From: Massilia antarctica
GTDB lineage: Bacteria; Pseudomonadota; Gammaproteobacteria; Burkholderiales; Burkholderiaceae_D
Length of the DNA: 64,000 nucleotides
NCBI RefSeq assembly: GCF_015689335.1
Contig: NZ_CP065053.1
Coordinates: 6,820,001 to 6,884,000 of the forward strand
Direction of reading: 5' to 3'
The position numbers were made by a program, and so were the translations under genes. Shown piece after piece: positions 5,240 to 46,534 of this stretch (position 1 is its first letter; each line of letters starts with the position of its first letter). The notes below the pieces were generated by a model, which saw only the letters and a program-made list of their open reading frames with translations, was not told the origin of the DNA and made no database searches.

Positions 5240-5266
5240 GGGACGCTTCGGCGTCCCTTGCTCTTT
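5240..5266 (+). terminator. Rho-independent terminator after cstA-ybdD
   Basis: A 7-bp stem GGGACGC/GCGTCCC is closed by a TTCG tetraloop (5240-5257) and followed by TTGCTCTTT. It lies 23 bp after the ybdD stop and fits the end of the operon. Confidence 0.75.
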
Positions 5267-5358
5267 GCGCGCCTCGACCCGGGCCAGGGTACGCCGCCAC
5301 GAATGTCAGGGTCGGGCCGGGCAAGCGAACGGAACGCAACCCGACCAACAAGCATTTG

Positions 5359-5988
5359 TTACGATGGAACGACGGAATCGGGCTCCAGAGGCGCGAGCCT
5401 GGACAAGTCTGATCGCGCGGCGCGAAGCGCCAACATATTGTCCTGCATGGCGCGCGAGCGGAGGCCCTTGATGCGCGAGGAAAGCGCGATTCTTGTGTCG
5501 GCTTTGGCGCGCGCCGCACTGGCCATGCGGGCGACCAGTTCCTGGAGGTCATTGACCGACAGAATTCGATGAAATTGCTGATCCTTGCTGATGAAGACAA
5601 GCGAATTACGCTTGCGGGCCAGCAGTTCGATGACATTGTTCAGCGTTCCGGTGCTCATGCCATCCCATATCATCAGCCCCAGGTCGGCCGCGTTTGCCAT
5701 CGCCACGTCTTTTGCTGTGAAGTAGGCACGGGAGTGTTTCGCATGGTAGGTCGTGACCTGGCACACAGGCCAGCCGCCGAAGTTATTGCGGGGCAAGTCG
5801 CCGCTGCAGTAGACCGTGACCTTCGGGGCGCCCTGATCGAACAGGAACTGCTGGATGGCGCTGTCCGCGCCGTCCGCATCGCCGACGATCACGTCGTAAT
5901 TCATCGATAAAATATTCATCATGCGCACCTGCACTTCGTCGTGCAGATGCCTGATCTTGATCGACCCCGCGAGAAATACCGTTGTCAT
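5359..5988 (-). CDS. SLOG-like Rossmann-fold protein
   Basis: 209-residue soluble protein starting MTTVFLAGSIKIRHLHDE. The pattern recalls the SLOG/LOG/DprA-like nucleotide-binding superfamily. It has a first strand ending in AGS, a second strand followed by an acidic loop (VIVGDADGADSAIQQFL), and a later loop WDGMSTGTLNNVIELLARK resembling the distal ligand-binding loop. Such proteins bind or process nucleotides or nucleotide-derived signals, and some belong to defence systems. The C-terminal 60 residues are basic and without recognised motif. The ATG at 5986-5988 has GGAGG ten bases upstream, which decides against the longer frame. It stands alone, with no obvious effector partner. Function unknown. 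Confidence 0.6.
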   Translation of the reverse strand: MTTVFLAGSIKIRHLHDEVQVRMMNILSMNYDVIVGDADGADSAIQQFLFDQGAPKVTVYCSGDLPRNNFGGWPVCQVTTYHAKHSRAYFTAKDVAMANAADLGLMIWDGMSTGTLNNVIELLARKRNSLVFISKDQQFHRILSVNDLQELVARMASAARAKADTRIALSSRIKGLRSRAMQDNMLALRAARSDLSRLAPLEPDSVVPS

Positions 5989-6225
5989 CTTGGGCGCCTC
6001 CAAGTTAATGCCGCCACGTAAGCATGTCAATCTCCTGCTCAAGCTTGGGGGCACCGGTCGTCACCCGCCGGACGCCACCGGCACCAATGCAGCTCCACCT
6101 GTCGCATTTTTTGACACCGCCCCGGCACCTTTGTTCCTTGTCAAAGTCGTGCCAGATCAATCCCCGTATATTTTTCCTGCGGGACATATTTCCCGGATCT
6201 CACCACCATCTGCCGGGTCGTCCCC

Positions 6226-27633: not shown

Positions 27634-28103
27634 CGGTTTTAAATTCTTTTTTTCATGTAAGCATGGTTGTTCAATTAGCCATGGCAAGTGGTTGATTTCA
27701 TAGGACTTTGCTGCAACGCAGCACTAAAAGCTAGATTTAAAAGTAATATAGAACGTTCGTGCTAGTATTGACTTAGTATATACCGGCTTCTACAATTCGC
27801 CCTACTTGATGAGCAGGCACTGTCTACGGACTCGATTCTAGCCTGTCTCATAACTTCACGGGGTCGGGGCCCCAATGACATTTTAAGGAGTGTTTTCAAT
27901 AGGCGTCTGCCTTCTCCCCCGAAACAGTTGTTTAGCTACTGGTCCAATACCACAGGGAACGACCAGCTGAGGCGAGCAATGACGGCGTTAATCGCGCGCC
28001 CATGCGGCGGCGATGGACGATATTTCTGATGCACGGCATAAGTCTGCCCGCTGCGCTAACGCGCGGTGCCGGGATGGCTTTTTCCGCGACAAAGGGGAAT
28101 TCG
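27634..28103. other. 470-bp AT-richer divergent intergenic region
   Basis: Separates ubiD (minus) from the lytic transglycosylase gene (plus). The stretch 27640-27900 is distinctly AT-richer than its surroundings. No gene is supported. A plausible plus-strand promoter is listed separately; the leader to the transglycosylase ATG would then be about 300 nt. Confidence 0.5.
27768..27796 (+). promoter_or_regulatory. candidate sigma-70 promoter for the lytic transglycosylase
   Basis: TTGACT at 27768-27773 and TACAAT at 27791-27796 with exact 17-bp spacing, in an AT-rich context upstream of the only plus-strand gene nearby. Confidence 0.5.
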
Positions 28104-29012
28104 ATGATACATCGTTTCAACGGGGCGACAGCAAAGCTCGCCCAAACCATGGCCAGCCAGCCATTCACGTGGTCTTCCGTGAGCAAAACGGCGCGTGGTC
28201 TCTTGACTACAATGCAGCACACACTGACGTTTTTCGGTGTTTCCGCACTGGCCATGATGGCCTTGCTCTATCTGCGTCCGGAAGTGGCGCACGAAGCGTC
28301 GCAACTGCTGGCCCCGCCGCACAAGCAGGCGCCCGTCGTCGTGCGCGCGCCCGTGCAGGCGCCCGCCCTGTCGGCCCTGATGACGGCGCCAACGCCGGCA
28401 CCGGCGCCCTTGCCCGCACCAGCCGTGCTGGCGCCGAACGAGCCGCCGATCCTGGCGCTCGACGAAAAGGCAAGCAAAGCGAACCGCAAGCAGCAGGAGT
28501 TCGTCACCACCTGGCTGTCCAAGCGCTACCGCGTGGCTGGCGACGCCGCCAACATGCTGGTGTCGACCGCCTATTCGACGGCGCGCGAAATCAAGCTCGA
28601 TCCGCTCCTGATCCTGGCGGTGATGGCCATCGAATCAGGCCTGAACCCGTTTGCCGAGAGCCCGGTGGGCGCGCAAGGCTTGATGCAGGTGATGTCGAAG
28701 ATTCACCATGAGAAGTTCCAGGACATGGGCGGCACCAAGGCTGCGCTCAATCCCGTGGCAAATATCCGGGTTGGCTCGCTGATCCTCAAGGAATACGTGA
28801 AACGCGGCGGTTCGGTGGAAGCCGGCCTGAAGACGTACGTGGGCGCCGCCGCCTTTGAAACCGACCAGGGTTACGGCTCGCGCGTGATGAACGAATATCA
28901 GAAGCTCAAGCTCGTTGCGAGCGGCAAAAAAGTGCCGACCGTGACGACGCCCGCCGCGCCGAAGCCGGTCATGGGCGAAAAAGCCTCGCAGGAGCAGATC
29001 GCCCGCTTGTAA
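28104..29012 (+). CDS. SLT-type lytic transglycosylase
   Basis: 302-residue envelope protein. An N-terminal membrane anchor (LTFFGVSALAMMALLYLRPE, about 37-56) is followed by a Pro/Ala-rich spacer and a C-terminal SLT lysozyme-like domain. The catalytic Glu lies in LAVMAIESGLNPFAESPVGA, followed by QGLMQVM and NIRVGSLILKEY. It would cleave peptidoglycan strands to 1,6-anhydromuramyl ends on the periplasmic side. The ATG at 28104 follows AAAGGGG, better placed than the in-frame codons upstream. The gene ends in a strong terminator that is duplicated near nusB. Confidence 0.9.
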   Translation: MIHRFNGATAKLAQTMASQPFTWSSVSKTARGLLTTMQHTLTFFGVSALAMMALLYLRPEVAHEASQLLAPPHKQAPVVVRAPVQAPALSALMTAPTPAPAPLPAPAVLAPNEPPILALDEKASKANRKQQEFVTTWLSKRYRVAGDAANMLVSTAYSTAREIKLDPLLILAVMAIESGLNPFAESPVGAQGLMQVMSKIHHEKFQDMGGTKAALNPVANIRVGSLILKEYVKRGGSVEAGLKTYVGAAAFETDQGYGSRVMNEYQKLKLVASGKKVPTVTTPAAPKPVMGEKASQEQIARL

Positions 29013-29035
29013 GGTGCTGTTATATATATGGATGT

Positions 29036-29067
29036 AAAAAAGCCCGATGCGTGCATCGGGCTTTTTT
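29036..29067. terminator. bidirectional Rho-independent terminator, left copy
   Basis: AAAAAAGCCCGAT pairs with ATCGGGCTTTTTT around a GCGTGC loop. It ends the transglycosylase transcript on the plus strand; the A run also gives a T run on the minus strand. Confidence 0.88.
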
Positions 29068-29144
29068 ATGGTCGGGAAGGACGTCTTGGCGGCAGGTGTC
29101 GCCGGCGACTTCGTCCGCGTGCAGCTTCGGTGCCAGCTTGTCGA
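29068..29144 (-). pseudogene. nusB 3'-end remnant
   Basis: Read on the minus strand this encodes [15 protein letters not shown] then CRQ, nearly the same as the true NusB C-terminus [21 protein letters not shown]. The stop codon TAA has become CAA, and no upstream nusB sequence is present beyond 29144. It is a non-functional fragment left by duplication or insertion. Confidence 0.82.
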
Positions 29145-29347
29145 TCCGCCGTCCCGAATGGATGCTCGCCCGCCGCAAGGAACAGGATTTGTTTTCATTT
29201 ATTTAACATAGTCATGTTACGATTTGTGCATGTTCAACAAGGATTGCCACTGCGGCTAGAAGCCGAGTGGGTCTGATCGTGCCTTCGTGCAGACCGCCGC
29301 AGCGATGGCAGTCCGCGTGCTCACCTAACCTTCAACAGCATTCGACA

Positions 29348-30526
29348 ATGATATCCAGCAAACATTTCCTTCACGTTTCAACATCGCGTCCTAACGCCCT
29401 ACTGCGCAGCCTGGTAATCGGCACCACGCTTCTTTGCGGTGCGAACAATGCGAACGCGAGTCCTACAACGATCACGGCAGCGAGCTGCGAATTCGCGGAC
29501 GTGGCAAGCGCAGCATCCACCGCCGCCGCCGCCGGCGCCGAAATCTTGGCGATCCCGGCAGGCACATGCGACTGGCACGGGAATCAACTGGTGGTCAATG
29601 CGGGTATCGAGATCCGGGGTGCTGGTGTCCATGCAACCATCCTGGAACGTACGGAATGGGATTCAAAAGAAGCAATGATCCAGATGCAATGCTATTCCGG
29701 AGGTAAACAAGCGCTATTTTCAGGAATCACACTGAAAGGCCACCTGAACAGTACAGACAGGCACAAGGGGCTGCAGCTTGCTGGGGGGTGCGTTGATTTT
29801 ATCGTGAGGCATTCTCGCTTTGAAGGATTTGTCGCCGCTGGTGTTGAAGTCATCGGACCATCCCGCCAACGTGGCGTTATATATGGAAATGAGTTTGTTA
29901 ATAACTATAACCCAACGCTGCATAACCTTGGTTATGGGGTCGTCTTGAATGCATTGGGTGCTTGGACCGATGTCGCGCTTGGTACTGCTGACGCTGTTTA
30001 TGTGGAAAATAATTACATGTATGGCAACCGGCATCACATCGCTTCGAATAATGGAGCCAAGTACGTCTTCCGTCATAACACAGCTGTCGCTAACATGCAA
30101 ACCAGAAACTTTCCACAGCTTGATGCACATGGTTTGGGCAATGGATCAAAGACCGGCACACGTAGTTGGGAAATCTACAACAACGATTTCCAAACCGATT
30201 TCCCCCCTGGCTCCGGCTTCGCAAACGATGCCATTGGCATCCGTGGGGGGGCCGGTGTTATTTTTGGGAACACCTATGGGAAAAACATTGCGGCGCATGT
30301 GAAGCTGCTGACGGAGGCATACTACAATGCGCAGATGAGCTGTTCTACGACGGTGGTTAGCCCAGCTCCGCAAGATCAGGTTCAAGACGCTTATATATGG
30401 GAGACGAATCCGGCAAAAATTGCAAATCCGTGCTCCAAGCAAATTGTCGCCGGCACGCATTTCTTCCTTACGCCACGGCCGGACTATACCCCCTATACCT
30501 ATCCGCATCCCTTACGGCCCCAGTAA
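29348..30526 (+). CDS. secreted right-handed beta-helix (pectate-lyase-fold) protein
   Basis: 392-residue exported protein. The signal peptide ends near CGANNANAS. The body shows repeated short strands typical of parallel beta-helix proteins, for example GIEIRGAGVHATILER, VDFIVRHSRFEGFVAAGVEV, GVIYGNEFVNNY and DAVYVENNYMYGNRHHIASN. These folds occur in polysaccharide lyases, epimerases and adhesins; I see no family-specific catalytic motif, so activity is open. Base composition is visibly lower in GC than its neighbours. It is flanked by the duplicated nusB 3' end, which implies acquisition between the transglycosylase and nusB. The right-hand copy of the terminator ends its transcript. Confidence 0.8.
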   Translation: MISSKHFLHVSTSRPNALLRSLVIGTTLLCGANNANASPTTITAASCEFADVASAASTAAAAGAEILAIPAGTCDWHGNQLVVNAGIEIRGAGVHATILERTEWDSKEAMIQMQCYSGGKQALFSGITLKGHLNSTDRHKGLQLAGGCVDFIVRHSRFEGFVAAGVEVIGPSRQRGVIYGNEFVNNYNPTLHNLGYGVVLNALGAWTDVALGTADAVYVENNYMYGNRHHIASNNGAKYVFRHNTAVANMQTRNFPQLDAHGLGNGSKTGTRSWEIYNNDFQTDFPPGSGFANDAIGIRGGAGVIFGNTYGKNIAAHVKLLTEAYYNAQMSCSTTVVSPAPQDQVQDAYIWETNPAKIANPCSKQIVAGTHFFLTPRPDYTPYTYPHPLRPQ

Positions 30527-30563
30527 TCACAACAGACTCCCCGAGCCCCCATATCGGGCGCAC

Positions 30564-30677
30564 GATGTAAAAAGCCCGATGCATGCATCGGGCTTTTTTT
30601 ATGGGTGGGAAGGACGTCTTAGCGGCGGGTGTCGCCGGCGACTTCGTCCGCGCGCAGCTTCGGCGCCAGCTTGTCGA
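30564..30677. repeat. 114-bp direct repeat, right copy (intact nusB 3' end)
   Basis: Partner of 29031-29144. This copy contains the true nusB stop (30619-30621) and the terminator hairpin. Confidence 0.9.
30569..30600. terminator. bidirectional terminator shared by beta-helix gene and nusB
   Basis: AAAAAGCCCGATGCATGCAT with its complement ending in seven T forms a nearly perfect palindrome. It lies between convergent genes and works on either strand. Confidence 0.88.
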
Positions 30678-31089
30678 GCACGCCGTTGACGTACTTGTGT
30701 CCGTCGATACCGCCAAACGACTTGGTCAGCTCGACCGCTTCGTTGATGACAACGCGATAAGGAATATCCAGGTTGTTCTTCAGCTCGAACGCACCGATCA
30801 GCAGCACGGCGTGCTCGATCGGGGACAGCTCGGCCACGCCGCGGTCGATCAGGGGCGCAAACGCTTCGCGCAGGGCGACCGAATCCTTGATCGCGCCGTA
30901 CAGCAAGACCGCAAAGTGGTCGGCGTCGGCCTTTTCAAAGCCGTGCGCTGCCCGGATGTTGGTCACGACCGTGGTGGCGTCTTCATTGTTCAGCAGCCAT
31001 TGATACAGCCCCTGCAAGGCGAACTCGCGCGCCCGGTGACGCGGCGTGCGGTTCTTGCTGGGGTTGGCGTGCAAGGTTTTCTCTGTCAT
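30619..31089 (-). CDS. nusB: transcription antitermination factor NusB
   Basis: 156-residue all-helical RNA-binding protein that pairs with NusE (S10) at boxA of rRNA operons. Signatures are [20 protein letters not shown] near the start and [20 protein letters not shown] followed by [14 protein letters not shown]. The first 17 residues are a basic extension usual in beta-proteobacteria. It is last in ribBA-ribH-nusB, 58 bp after ribH. Confidence 0.97.
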
Positions 31090-36040: not shown

Positions 36041-38857
36041 ATGACCAAGTATTTCGTTCGATCCGCCTGTGCGGCTACCCTCCTGATGGCGTGTGTCTTC
36101 GGCGCCCAGGCCGCGATCAAGCTGGGCGACGCGATACCGGCAGGGCCGCAGGTCAAGGTGGGCAAGCTGGCCAACGGACTGACGTACTACATCCAGAACA
36201 ACGCCAAGCCCGAGAAAAAACTCGAACTGCGGCTGGTCGTCAAGGCCGGCTCGATCCTGGAAGACGAAGACCAGCAAGGGCTGGCCCACTTCACCGAACA
36301 CATGGCCTTCAACGGCTCGACCAATTTCAAGAAACACGAACTGATCTCGTACCTGCAATCGATCGGGGTCAAGTTCGGCGCCGACCTGAATGCCTACACC
36401 AGCTTCGACGAAACGGTGTACATCCTGCCCATCCCCACCGACAACCGCGACAACATCGACAAGGGCTTCCTGGTGCTGCAGGACTGGGCCGGCGGGTTGA
36501 CCATGAACGCGGCCGACATCGACAAGGAACGCGGCATCATCCTGGAAGAGCTGCGGCTCGGCAAAGGCGCCAACGACCGCATGAACAAGGTGCTCATGCC
36601 GAAGCTGTACAACGGCTCGCAGTACGCCCGGCGCCTGCCGATCGGGCAGGAACGCATCATCAAGGGCTTCAGGCATGAGGCTATCCGGCGCTTCTACAAG
36701 GACTGGTACCGGCCCGACCTGATGGCAGTGGTGGTGGTGGGCGACATCGACCCGCTCGATGCCGAGCGGCGCATCAAACAGCATTTCGGGCAGCTGAAAA
36801 ATCCTGCCAGGGAGCGCGCGCGCACTTACGCCGCCATTCCCACGCGCGCCCATACCGAGGCGCTGGTCGTCACCGACAAGGAAGCGACCGCCAATGCGCT
36901 GCTGATCCGCTATCCGGTGAAGGAAGCGATCGACAAGGGCACGTTCGGGGCCTACCGCGAAAAGCTGGTCGAGGCGCTGTTTACCGGCATGCTGGGCCAG
37001 CGCATGCAGGAACTGGCGCAGCAAGCCGACCCGCCGTTCATGGCCGGCAGCAGCTCGGTGGGCAAGCTCACGCCGCGCTACAACTCGTACAACGCCTTCG
37101 CCGCCCTCGGCAAGGGCGGCGCCACGCCGGCCATCGAGGCGCTGATCCAGGAAAACGCGCGCACGCGCCAGTTCGGCTTCAGCGCCCAGGAATTCGAGCG
37201 GGCGCGCAAGAACATGATGCGCCACTACGAACTGGCCTACAACGAACGTGACAAGACCGATTCGAGCAGCTATGTCGGCGAATACGTTCGCAACTTCCTC
37301 GAACAGGAAAGCATCCCTGGCATCGAGAACGAATTCGCCTACGTGCGCGAACTGCTGCCGGCGATCACCCTCGACGAAATGAACCGCTACGCGCGCGCCA
37401 CCATTCCGGCCGACTCGGCCAAGCTGGTGGTGTACATGGGCAGCACCAAGGGCGATTCCCCGGCGCCGAGCAGCGCCCAGCTGCTGGCGGCGGTGGCGGC
37501 GGCCGAAAAAGTGACAGTGAGCGCGCTGGAACAAAAGACCCTGGCCACGGAGCTGATGGACAAGCCGCCGGCGGGCGGCAGCATCGTCGCCCAGAGCGAA
37601 GACAAGGTGCTGGGACTGACCAGGCTGACCTTGTCGAACGGCGTGAAAGTGATCCTCAAGCCGACCGACTTCCGCAACGACGAAGTGATCATGAGCGCGG
37701 CGCGCTTCGGCGGCCAGACCCTGTTCGGCGATGCCGACATCATCAACGCGCGCTACGCGAATGCGGTGGTAGGCACGATGGGCCTGAAGGACCACTCGCC
37801 GCTCGAGCTGCAGAAAATTTTGGCGGGCAAGGCCGCCACGGTCAACGTCACCTTGGGGAACCATGTGGACGGCATCACCGGCAGCACCGCCAACGACGAC
37901 ATGGAAACCATGCTGCAACTGGTGTACCTGCGCATGACGGGCGTGCGTCGCGACGAGGGCCTGTACAAGTCCTTCGTCGGCAAGCAGATGGAGGCGGCGC
38001 GCAATGCGATGGCGCAGCCGGAATCGGTGTTTCGCGACACCCTGGTGAGCACCCTGTACCAGGACAATCCTCGCGTGGGCCGTACGGCGCGCCCGGGCGA
38101 CTTCGACAAGCTCGATCTGGAACGCGCACTGGCGGTCTACCGCGCGCGCTTTTTCAGCGCGAAAGACATGACCTTCATTTTCGTGGGAAGTTTTGACATG
38201 GCCAAGGTCAAGCCGCTGCTGGCGACCTACCTGGGCGCGCTGCCGGTAGGCGATATCGAGATCGGCTACAAGGATGCCGGCGTACGTCCGGTGCGCGGGG
38301 TGGTGAAAAAGGAAGTGCGCAGCGGCTCGGAAGCGAAGAGCAGCGTGTCGCTCAATTTCAGCGGCGAGGCGCCGTACTCGGACGACGAAGCGATGCGTTT
38401 CCAGGCGATGCTGGAAGTGATGAACATCCGGATCACCGACATCCTGCGCGAAAAGCTGGCCCTGATTTACGGCGGCGGCATGAACGGCAGCTTGAGCAAA
38501 TACCCGTACGAGAATTATCTGATCACGGCCTCGCTGCCGACCGGGCCGGCCAATGTGGACAAGGTGATCGCCGCCGCGATGGCCGAAATTGCGCGCATGA
38601 AGGAGCAAGGGCCGGACCTGGGGGACTTGAACAAGGTCAAACAGAACTGGCTGCAGAACCACCAGAAATCGCTGCGCGAGAACGGTTACTGGATCAACCG
38701 CCTGCAGGCGGCCGAGCTGCAGGGCAGCGATCCGCACGAGATCCTGGCGTATCCGAAGAAGGTGGAGGCGATCACGCCGGAGCAGCTCAAGCAGGCCGCG
38801 CGGCGCTACTTCGACATGAACAATTACGTGCAGCTGGTGCTGTATCCGGAAAAATGA
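36041..38857 (+). CDS. M16-family zinc protease (periplasmic insulinase-like)
   Basis: 938-residue exported protease. The signal peptide MTKYFVRSACAATLLMACVF ends near GAQAA. The first M16 domain carries the inverted zinc motif HFTEH (residues 83-87) and the downstream Glu region ERGIILEELRLG. The second half is the non-catalytic M16_C repeat pair (for example VTLSNGVKVILKPTDFRNDE-like LTLSNGVKVILKPTDF). Overall size and layout match PqqL-like periplasmic proteases that clear peptides. Its start is 36 bp after the GGDEF-EAL stop, and co-transcription is possible. Substrate unknown. Confidence 0.93.
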   Translation: MTKYFVRSACAATLLMACVFGAQAAIKLGDAIPAGPQVKVGKLANGLTYYIQNNAKPEKKLELRLVVKAGSILEDEDQQGLAHFTEHMAFNGSTNFKKHELISYLQSIGVKFGADLNAYTSFDETVYILPIPTDNRDNIDKGFLVLQDWAGGLTMNAADIDKERGIILEELRLGKGANDRMNKVLMPKLYNGSQYARRLPIGQERIIKGFRHEAIRRFYKDWYRPDLMAVVVVGDIDPLDAERRIKQHFGQLKNPARERARTYAAIPTRAHTEALVVTDKEATANALLIRYPVKEAIDKGTFGAYREKLVEALFTGMLGQRMQELAQQADPPFMAGSSSVGKLTPRYNSYNAFAALGKGGATPAIEALIQENARTRQFGFSAQEFERARKNMMRHYELAYNERDKTDSSSYVGEYVRNFLEQESIPGIENEFAYVRELLPAITLDEMNRYARATIPADSAKLVVYMGSTKGDSPAPSSAQLLAAVAAAEKVTVSALEQKTLATELMDKPPAGGSIVAQSEDKVLGLTRLTLSNGVKVILKPTDFRNDEVIMSAARFGGQTLFGDADIINARYANAVVGTMGLKDHSPLELQKILAGKAATVNVTLGNHVDGITGSTANDDMETMLQLVYLRMTGVRRDEGLYKSFVGKQMEAARNAMAQPESVFRDTLVSTLYQDNPRVGRTARPGDFDKLDLERALAVYRARFFSAKDMTFIFVGSFDMAKVKPLLATYLGALPVGDIEIGYKDAGVRPVRGVVKKEVRSGSEAKSSVSLNFSGEAPYSDDEAMRFQAMLEVMNIRITDILREKLALIYGGGMNGSLSKYPYENYLITASLPTGPANVDKVIAAAMAEIARMKEQGPDLGDLNKVKQNWLQNHQKSLRENGYWINRLQAAELQGSDPHEILAYPKKVEAITPEQLKQAARRYFDMNNYVQLVLYPEK

Positions 38858-43193: not shown

Positions 43194-43457
43194 GGATATC
43201 CCAGCGTAAATGGCTGACCGCGATTTTACGCCAAGACAGCCGTTCCCGCCCGCTGGGCGTACCGGCGGCAACGCCTGCCCGCCGGAACAGGCCGGGAACG
43301 CCCGGCAAAACCTCTCGACGCAGCTCCAACAGATGAGAGAGCGGGAAAGCGAAAGGACGGCCTGGTGATTGTCCGCCCGCCGCTCGTGGCTGATGCGCAG
43401 TCCGCAGAATCGATGAAGCCACATCCACGGACGTGGTATTTGGCGCCGGGCTTGCCT

Positions 43458-44357
43458 TTACTGGCCGGATGTGGGCCTTTGATTTGCGCTCGTCTTGCCG
43501 AGAGCCGCCTCAGCAATGAGCGTCTGGGCAAGGCTCGCGCGCGCCTTGGCCGCATAGTGACGGCAGGCGTCGGCATCGATGAAGGCGGCATTGCCGAGTG
43601 CCGCCTGTTGAGCCTTGCGCTCCCACAGGCCGCCAGCTTCCGGATGCGCAGAGACGAGGACGTCGCAAGGCAGCGCTTCGATGGTGACGGACGAGCGCTC
43701 GACGTCCGCCTGCGCCTGCGGGTAAAGCGGATTACCGCTGAAACGCAAGCCTTTGGCGGCTAGCGCAGTCAGGCTGTCGGCAAACACGACATTCACGGTC
43801 CGCCCATTTTCTTCGGCTTGCCAGGTCCAGCTGGTTCCGCCTTTGGTGTGTCCTGGCGTGAAGTGCGCGGTCACGGCCAGCGGCCCGAGGTGGATGGTTT
43901 CGCCGTCACGCACCACGCGAGTGTGTGCGACTGGTGACATGGGAGTCAAGTTCGGATATTGCGCATCGGCCCGATCTGGCTGACCGCTCTCAAGCACCAG
44001 GACCGCGGCCGGACTGGCCAGCACGGTTGCACCGCTCAGCTTCTGCAAATCCGCGATGGCGCCAGCATGATCCTGATGGGCGTGCGAATTGAGGATGTAG
44101 CGGATATCTTCAACCCGGAAGCCCAGCTTGCGAATATGCGCCACAACTTGGGCCGCTGCCTCGGGGCCGCCGGCATCGACGAGGATGTGTCCCGCGGACG
44201 ACGTCATCAGCACAGCACTTATCCCGCCCGTGCCGACGTAATAGGTATTTCCAAGCAATCGGAAAGGGTCTTGCGGCGCATACCAGTCTGCCGCACTGGC
44301 AGCGGTGAGGAATGCTCCTAAGAAAAACATGGAACACCCGAGAAGTTGCTTTTTCAT
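43458..44357 (-). CDS. subclass B3 metallo-beta-lactamase
   Basis: 299-residue periplasmic zinc hydrolase. The signal peptide MKKQLLGCSMFFLGAFLTAA ends near SAADW. All B3 zinc ligands are present: His92, His94, Asp96 and His97 in SHAHQDHAG, His170 in FTPGHTKGGTSW and His238 in SAHPEAGGLWERK. GTGGISAVLMTSSAGHILVDAG and FADSLTALAAKGLRFSGNP are typical of B3 enzymes such as THIN-B from a related genus. Hydrolysis of penicillins, cephalosporins and carbapenems is known for the family; activity here is predicted, not shown. It follows the MEDS kinase gene by 106 bp on the same strand. No insertion sequence or integron is adjacent, so it may be chromosomal and intrinsic. Confidence 0.9.
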   Translation of the reverse strand: MKKQLLGCSMFFLGAFLTAASAADWYAPQDPFRLLGNTYYVGTGGISAVLMTSSAGHILVDAGGPEAAAQVVAHIRKLGFRVEDIRYILNSHAHQDHAGAIADLQKLSGATVLASPAAVLVLESGQPDRADAQYPNLTPMSPVAHTRVVRDGETIHLGPLAVTAHFTPGHTKGGTSWTWQAEENGRTVNVVFADSLTALAAKGLRFSGNPLYPQAQADVERSSVTIEALPCDVLVSAHPEAGGLWERKAQQAALGNAAFIDADACRHYAAKARASLAQTLIAEAALGKTSANQRPTSGQ

Positions 44358-44463
44358 TTTTGTTCTGAGAATAATTGAAGGATGCCTGTCCCGGTGACGA
44401 CATCACAGCACGCGGCGATTGATCAGCGTCAGCGCCACCATTGAAGAGATCCAATTTGCTCCG

Positions 44464-46299
44464 CTATCCAAGGATTGGGACGAGTTTGGGTCCACTTCGC
44501 TCATTATCTGCATTGCCAAGATCGTTCGGCAACCGCGGCAAGCGGATTATGAATGTACTTCCCATACCGGTACCCTTGCTGGCAGCAGCGATCGACCCTC
44601 CGTGTAGCTCCACCAAACTCCTCGCCAAGGCAAGTCCAAGACCTAGCCCCCCCTGAGCTCTGTCGGGCGTACGACGCCCCTGCACGAACAGGTCGAATAA
44701 GTGTGCCAATAGTTCCTCATCCATGCCAATGCCTGTGTCTGACACGATCAATTCTGTTTCGCCCACATCGGCACGCAAGCGCATATTGATGGTGCCGCCA
44801 TTTGGTGTGAACTTGTTGGCGTTGACGAGGATGTTAGCCACAACCTGGACGATGCGTTTGCGGTCGGCCATGACAAGCACTGGTTCGCGCGGGATGTCGA
44901 GCTGCAAGCTTTGATTGCTAGCTTGGACACGCGAGGCAATCTGCTCTGCGGCATCAGTTAAGATCGCACGAAGATCGAGCACGGACGTGTCGAGAGCGAT
45001 CAGACCCCGCGTGACCCGAGCGACGTCAAGCAAATCGTCAACCAGGCCAGTCATGTGCCGTACTTGCCGCTTGAGGACACCAGCCACATGTTGCACCCGT
45101 TCAGGATCGTTCGCGACGATTTTGAGCACCTCTGCAGCTGCGCTGACAGGCGCGAGCGGATTTCGCAATTCATGGCCGAGCATCGCAAGGAATTCGTCCT
45201 TCGCACGGTTGGCTTCGGAGAGTTTTGTTACCAGGACTTCTCGCTCACGGTGCAGTTGTACCAGCAAGTGGCGTTCGGTCGCGTCGCGTGTGAAACAACG
45301 GGTGTAGCGCAAGTGGCCATTCTCGAAGCAACCGTTTGAACTGATGACCACATGCTGGATTGAGGCGTCCCTGCGATTCAGCCGCGCTGGCTCGTCAAGC
45401 AAAGTTTGTCCTTGCTGCAGGCGGGTCAGGATGGACGCGATGACATCGGAGTCGGTATGGAACTCCGAGATGTGATGCCCCACATATTCATCCCATCGGT
45501 AACCGAGCATCGCTAGTTCGGCCTTGTTAGCCCATAGGATCGTACCGTCTGGTCCAACGCGGTGCAGGGCTTCGGCAGCGTTCTCCAGGAAGTCCATTAA
45601 TTCCCGCTCGCGGTCCTGCAGTGTCGCTTCCGCTTCTCTGCCTCGGACAACCTCACAGCGCAGAGCATGATTCTCCTGCTGCAGGATGGCGAGCTGTCGA
45701 GACACATCTGGATCGCTCTTCTCTAGAGCCTGGATCGAATGACAGACTTGGTCATGCGCGAAGCAAATGCGTTGAAACGCAGCAGCGTCTCCGGGCCTCG
45801 AAAATTGTTGCCATGGGTAGGCACAAAAAAGCGCAAACCGGCATTCCCGAGCCAAGCTGTTCCACAGTTCTTCAAGCCGCACTGCTGCGTTATACAGGCC
45901 GCGGGAACATAGTACAGCGACCATTTCACCAAACGCGTGAACTACTGTTCCAGAATCACAGGCACTGCGGACGACACTGCCGACCGTGCGGTCAAACAGC
46001 CGCTCGTCCGGCCAGTCGTCGACCATGAACAGCGCTAGCGTGTCTTCCGCATTCAGCACGATCAGGTGCTTTAGGGGTTGTTCCTCGCCGTTCAAGGAAG
46101 CCAGCCCTTGCAGCTGATCTTGCAACGCAGTTATGTGATCGTTGGTAGCAATGACAATTGCCGTGCCACTAGTGCGCAATCCCTGCTCAATGAACTCGGC
46201 AACCTCGCTCAGAAGCGTGACCTCGTCTTGGTAGAAGCGTACGAAATGAGGTGGAGGATGAGATTGATGGAGAGTCGGATTTTGGCGTTGCGTGGACAT
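44464..46299 (-). CDS. MEDS-domain sensor histidine kinase
   Basis: 611-residue soluble hybrid-free kinase. The N-terminal MEDS (DcmR-type sensory) domain, about 16-180, contains HFVRFYQDEVTLLSEVAEFI and GTAIVIATNDH. A PAS domain (about 235-350) has LENAAEALHRVGPDGTILWA. HisKA has its His in FLAMLGHELRNPLAPVSAAA, and HATPase has VVANILVNANKFTPNGG, SDTGIGMD and [26 protein letters not shown] precedes the ATG. No response regulator gene is adjacent. Base composition is somewhat lower in GC than the flanking pil and rib genes. It may be co-transcribed with the beta-lactamase gene. Confidence 0.9.
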   Translation of the reverse strand: MSTQRQNPTLHQSHPPPHFVRFYQDEVTLLSEVAEFIEQGLRTSGTAIVIATNDHITALQDQLQGLASLNGEEQPLKHLIVLNAEDTLALFMVDDWPDERLFDRTVGSVVRSACDSGTVVHAFGEMVAVLCSRGLYNAAVRLEELWNSLARECRFALFCAYPWQQFSRPGDAAAFQRICFAHDQVCHSIQALEKSDPDVSRQLAILQQENHALRCEVVRGREAEATLQDRERELMDFLENAAEALHRVGPDGTILWANKAELAMLGYRWDEYVGHHISEFHTDSDVIASILTRLQQGQTLLDEPARLNRRDASIQHVVISSNGCFENGHLRYTRCFTRDATERHLLVQLHREREVLVTKLSEANRAKDEFLAMLGHELRNPLAPVSAAAEVLKIVANDPERVQHVAGVLKRQVRHMTGLVDDLLDVARVTRGLIALDTSVLDLRAILTDAAEQIASRVQASNQSLQLDIPREPVLVMADRKRIVQVVANILVNANKFTPNGGTINMRLRADVGETELIVSDTGIGMDEELLAHLFDLFVQGRRTPDRAQGGLGLGLALARSLVELHGGSIAAASKGTGMGSTFIIRLPRLPNDLGNADNERSGPKLVPILG

Positions 46300-46340
46300 A
46301 CGTGTCCCCTTACATTAGCGCAGGTAACACACCTATAAAA

Positions 46341-46385
46341 GAGCAATTGTACCAGCCGATACACGTCAAAATGTGACAATTGCTC
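46341..46385. promoter_or_regulatory. 10-bp inverted repeat upstream of the MEDS kinase
   Basis: GAGCAATTGT (46341-46350) and its exact complement ACAATTGCTC (46376-46385) bracket 25 bp, 42 bp before the kinase start. It could be an operator, or a hairpin ending transcription from upstream; no T run follows. Confidence 0.4.
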
Positions 46386-46534
46386 CCCAGATCACACCCG
46401 GTTTGATTTTGCGCTACCGATACCCGATTGATTTGATCTTGTGATGTCCGCTTTTGGCCGATAGCGGACGGCCGGAATAGCTAAGTGTACGCGGTTGTTG
46501 CTCTCGTCGCAAGTATGAGGTTTTATCAAGCGTT

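Follow-up and report, generated by a model that had tools for sequence, protein, structure and literature searches.

Integrase-driven genomic islands that attach at gene 3' ends leave direct repeats of that gene end, a whole target gene and an empty site. Insertion sequences and transposons leave target duplications of ~2–14 bp. Long target duplications made without an enzyme are, to our knowledge, not the usual mark of any single named pathway. Small variable segments of bacterial genomes that are flanked by direct repeats have been attributed to illegitimate recombination; in the part of that work describing them, 10–18% of such segments are repeat-flanked, most of the repeats are shorter than 30 bp, and deletion between repeats is discussed (PMC2884548). 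Homology-facilitated illegitimate recombination, as outlined in its description, combines homology at one end with an illegitimate join at the other (PMC3240628).

The junction between slt and nusB in Massilia antarctica can be set beside each of these. Like the segments of PMC2884548, in so far as that report describes them, it holds a short insert between conserved genes with direct repeats on both sides; unlike them, its repeat is 114 bp long and includes a gene end and a hairpin, and relatives indicate insertion. The nusB-junction insert can be placed among those segments as a case with a long repeat: the insert is lineage-specific, its neighbours are conserved, and no mobile-element genes were found in it. 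It shares with the route outlined in PMC3240628 the integration of DNA without a dedicated recombinase and with the help of a homologous stretch, but here the repeat lies at both ends. Like integrase-driven islands at gene 3' ends, it has direct repeats that hold the 3' end of the target gene, a whole nusB and a single-copy junction in relatives. In contrast to such islands, no integrase was found, the repeat also spans the hairpin, and both copies look like the host lineage's own. The literature we searched gave no account of a nusB-tail duplication, which is no proof that none has been published.

The repeat pair between slt and nusB

In the window, by which we mean the whole 64-kb stretch of DNA analysed, the junction comprises the following features.

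28002..29012, + strand: slt, lytic transglycosylase with an SLT domain (PF01464, E = 1.2e-15), flanks the junction on the left and converges on nusB; relatives have its orthologue in this position
29031..29144, no strand assigned: left repeat copy, made up of a terminator-like hairpin, an 18-bp spacer and the decayed last ~20 nusB codons with the stop lost (repeat search, pairwise alignment)
29036..29068, no strand assigned: left terminator-like hairpin (A-tract, GC stem, T-tract), directly after slt (RNA fold −22.5 and −21.5 kcal/mol on the two strands)
29145..30563, + strand: unique insert of 1,419 bp, absent at the same junction in relatives (comparison with relatives)
29225..29323, + strand: leader hairpin of the beta-helix gene (fold −45.9 kcal/mol, z −2.17; 6 of 200 shuffled sequences fold equally well)
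29348..30526, + strand: gene for a secreted right-handed beta-helix protein of 392 aa with a carbohydrate-active-like fold
30564..30677, no strand assigned: right repeat copy, continuous with intact nusB, its hairpin also directly after the beta-helix stop (repeat search, alignment)
30569..30599, no strand assigned: terminator-like hairpin of the right copy, separating the beta-helix gene from nusB (RNA fold −20.4 and −19.7 kcal/mol on the two strands)
30619..31089, − strand: nusB, intact (PF01029, E = 8.8e-27)

The two 114-bp copies lie 1532–1533 bp apart, and their alignment of ~115 columns shows 7 substitutions and 2 one-base indels (~92% identity). An initial annotation of this DNA had described two copies of this length, position and identity, and both repeat search and alignment confirm them. 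The pair is the sole direct repeat reported in the window (exact seed of 14, length of at least 45, distance of up to 8 kb), and blastn of the nusB 3' end against the DNA downstream of it returns a match at E = 6e-38. The TAA stop of the right copy is CAA in the left one, so the loss of the nusB stop codon noted in that annotation is real. The intact nusB encodes a protein 100% identical to those of two relatives, G016 and G005.

Folding and position suggest that both hairpins serve as terminators. A consensus terminator scanner listed neither of them, probably because their A- and T-tracts pair into the stem. Integration associated with a tRNA gene was considered and rejected, the nearest tRNA gene in the window being at 37069.

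The junction in relatives and the origin of the two copies

Comparison with related genomes points to a lineage-specific insertion. The distance from slt to nusB is 136–523 bp in 12 of 14 genus loci, and the other two hold ~3.3–3.5 kb of other cargo; this single-copy junction in relatives supports the initial reading of an insertion between the two genes. G016 provides the empty junction that was to be looked for, with a 144-bp spacer and one terminator-like hairpin. The opposite outcome, a duplication present in all close relatives, is not what the genomes hold: the nusB tail is duplicated in none of 94 other nusB loci, and the cargo occurs in 1 of 17 genus genomes. These 94 loci are the best 80 of 573 named loci plus 14 of the 16 other genus genomes (left out were G006, with no slt or nusB DNA match, and G011, split over contigs); four genomes appear twice and six loci have less than 2 kb of downstream DNA. 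Matches of 16–42 bp in 9 loci, two of them from the same genome, were attributed to chance, or in the case of G009 to palindromic repeats of the spacer, and were not counted.

The initial annotation had also proposed an ancestral order of slt, one terminator and nusB. This order fits G016, G002 and G009, whereas G005 and several more distant relatives show, by inspection, another terminator-like hairpin towards nusB. One terminator shared by both genes is therefore not a genus-wide rule. The two hairpins in the G005 spacer (L006, 2037–2088 and 2208–2259) are 75% alike over 52 bp and have ~120 bp between them, with no gene-sized cargo. In the slt–nusB spacers of G009, G007 and G002 (L049, L051, L052), recurrent palindromes of the form ACCGGGGTCAGACCCC resemble REP-type elements.

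Unrelated cargo occupies the slt–nusB junction in other species (L062, 6472–9646; L067, 6478–10308; L072, 4201–7359), which makes the junction a variable spot. In M. cavernae the cargo consists of a dehydrogenase-like gene and a toxin-antitoxin-like pair; in a Duganella and a Pseudoduganella it consists of a DJ-1-like gene and two-component genes (all named by eye).

Both repeat copies carry marks of the M. antarctica lineage. The 18-bp spacer is common to the two, with 2 sites differing, and occurs in none of 15 relatives. Four sites of the 60-bp nusB tail separate the copies, and at each of them it is the left copy that departs from the rest; the right copy has no change of its own there. 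Three of the left-copy changes are G:C to A:T; two alter conserved arginines and one removes the stop. The copies also have in common two tail base states that are missing from the six nearest relatives (G016, G005, G002, G009, G003 and G007). Both states recur singly in a few more distant relatives, so the argument from shared states rests mainly on the spacer and the left-private changes.

A tree of the 60-bp tail with 15 relatives, short and weak at this length, places the two copies together at an ultrafast bootstrap of 85; the branch of the right copy has zero length, that of the left 0.07. Building such a tree had been suggested as a way to learn whether one copy comes from another species, and its answer goes against that origin. 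Given the shared spacer and base states, and tail changes confined to the left copy, the junction appears to have been duplicated within the host lineage, or to derive from a donor closer than G016, with the left copy decaying afterwards. The change in the left-copy tail (4/60) is about half of the fourfold-site divergence between the window and G016 (54/370, over slt, nusB and ribH), so the duplication may be about as old, within a wide error, as the split from G016.

The insert and its beta-helix gene

The insert holds one convincing gene, which encodes the beta-helix protein. Its GC content is 0.526 and its GC3 0.546, against ~0.63 and 0.77–0.84 for slt, nusB and ribH. The composition is foreign, and the lower-GC secreted beta-helix gene of the initial annotation is confirmed. 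At genus level the gene occurs in 1 of 17 genomes, at family level in 5 of 294 and at order level in 2 of 399; each count includes the M. antarctica genome itself, and the family and order counts each include one weak broken match.

The protein has no Pfam or NCBIfam match. Its fold matches alginate epimerase/lyase-type enzymes, with which it shares the right-handed beta-helix of the alginate C5-epimerase/lyase type, and two residues, D259 and H261, are invariant across 41 sequences. Of four homologue loci, three are part of polysaccharide gene clusters, with one of the three judged by layout only. The most likely role predicted for the protein is the modification or cleavage of extracellular polysaccharide.

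The closest homologues are 77–82% identical and sit on short contigs; scans of genome and viral contigs returned no close relatives. Plasmid and phage collections gave no match at E 1e-5, on which ground we rejected a plasmid or phage cargo; one weak PHROG match to a tail protein covers 50 residues (E = 6.5e-4). Bracketing by repeats is not a habit of the gene family, as the 4 homologue loci compared, which belong to 3 genomes, show none. One of these loci has a 90-nt repeat, 130 bp apart, that lies upstream of the gene and not around it. No Rfam family was listed for the leader hairpin: none of 12 Rfam matches reached gathering score and none lay over the leader, and a genome search gave weak short matches only, with no clear second copy.

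Routes of insertion

The reading we favour, and consider probable, is that foreign DNA of ~1.4 kb was captured at the slt–nusB junction by an illegitimate event of the repair or replication type, with duplication of the lineage's own target. After the split from the nearest sampled relatives (e.g. G016), the foreign segment with its one beta-helix gene would have entered between the convergent slt and nusB, and 114 bp of host junction, comprising the hairpin, the 18-bp spacer and the last ~20 nusB codons, would have been duplicated along with the insertion. One copy would have stayed joined to nusB and kept that gene whole. The other would have stayed beside slt and retained its hairpin, while its nusB tail decayed as a non-coding relic. 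The duplication could have arisen by template switching in the repair of a break or fork, or when a long staggered break was filled in with captured DNA. The point of breakage or stalling may have been the base of the hairpin, which lies at most ~5 bp from one repeat edge. On this account both neighbouring genes would have kept their endings because the cell's own junction sequence was copied in the insertion.

Signs of an enzyme were sought in the insert. Searches of Pfam and PHROGs found no recombinase or transposase family (E ≤ 1) in the five other insert ORFs of at least 80 aa or in three upstream pieces, which agrees with the initial remark that no integrase is present, and we rejected a recombinase relic in the insert accordingly. 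By inspection, the 60-base ends of the unique part contain no inverted repeat. With no transposase family in the tested ORFs, no terminal inverted repeats and a duplication of 114 bp, the insert does not match an insertion sequence or transposon.

The main rival to capture during repair is a small site-specific integrative element that attached at the nusB 3' end, restored nusB and later lost its integrase. An island relic of this sort would look similar to the observed structure: the direct repeats include a gene 3' end, the target gene is whole, and the site is single-copy in relatives. Against it, the insert ORFs and upstream pieces tested contain no integrase family, the nusB-side copy has the host lineage's own 18-bp spacer and the slt-side hairpin, none of the 94 other nusB loci has the repeat, and the papers checked for nusB islands contained nothing relevant. 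We regard such a relic as unlikely. Less likely still is a single-crossover (Campbell-type) event in which the incoming DNA, circular or joined, came from the species itself or a very close strain and had repeat and cargo together beforehand. It would yield exactly the order repeat, cargo, repeat, and a very near donor would agree with the own-lineage marks in both copies; it merely shifts, however, the question of how repeat and cargo were first joined, and none of the 16 other genus genomes showed such a donor.

The initial annotation had nusB restored by an incoming, diverged copy, with the right copy arriving together with the cargo from another species. The ~8% difference between the copies and the foreign composition of the cargo would suit this proposal. 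It finds no support in where the differences fall, since all four private tail changes fall in the left copy and none in the right, and the lineage-specific states are common to both; we hold it to be very improbable. Divergence between repeat copies does not by itself imply a foreign origin: once a copy is displaced, relaxed selection on it produces the same picture. An artefact of assembly is the least credible reading of all: the genome is a single contig of 7.43 Mb, the two copies are not identical (7 substitutions and 2 indels), and the cargo protein cluster has 3 member sequences on 2 contigs, although one strain, assembled more than once, may account for these.

The reading we favour, capture with the host junction duplicated, would make the locus a clean case resembling one event, with a single-copy junction in relatives, the cargo, an own-lineage 114-bp duplication, one copy conserved and one decaying. 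A lone gene can thus enter at a conserved gene end with neither neighbour damaged and with no visible mobile element. The locus is a tidy instance of an ordinary kind of genome change. A broader idea, on which we would place little weight, is that bidirectional terminator hairpins between convergent genes are recurrent points of breakage or stalling, at which single foreign genes are taken up during repair and the junction becomes duplicated. If true, it would amount to gene gain without an enzyme, both neighbours keeping their ends and terminators.

Between the window and G016 there are four differences of at least 500 bp. Only the beta-helix insert has long flanking repeats, those of the other three being at most 32 nt, so bracketing by repeats is not a general habit here.

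Two other blocks in the window were noted in passing, each free of long flanking repeats. Positions 5260–6083 hold 824 bp where G016 has 78 bp. A 3.3-kb block at 43253–46534 is absent from G016, which has a 6-bp gap there. It contains a sensor-histidine-kinase-like gene, for which no NCBIfam cut-off was reached among the 25 matches listed, and a subclass B3 metallo-beta-lactamase-like gene that scores above the cut-off of NF033105.
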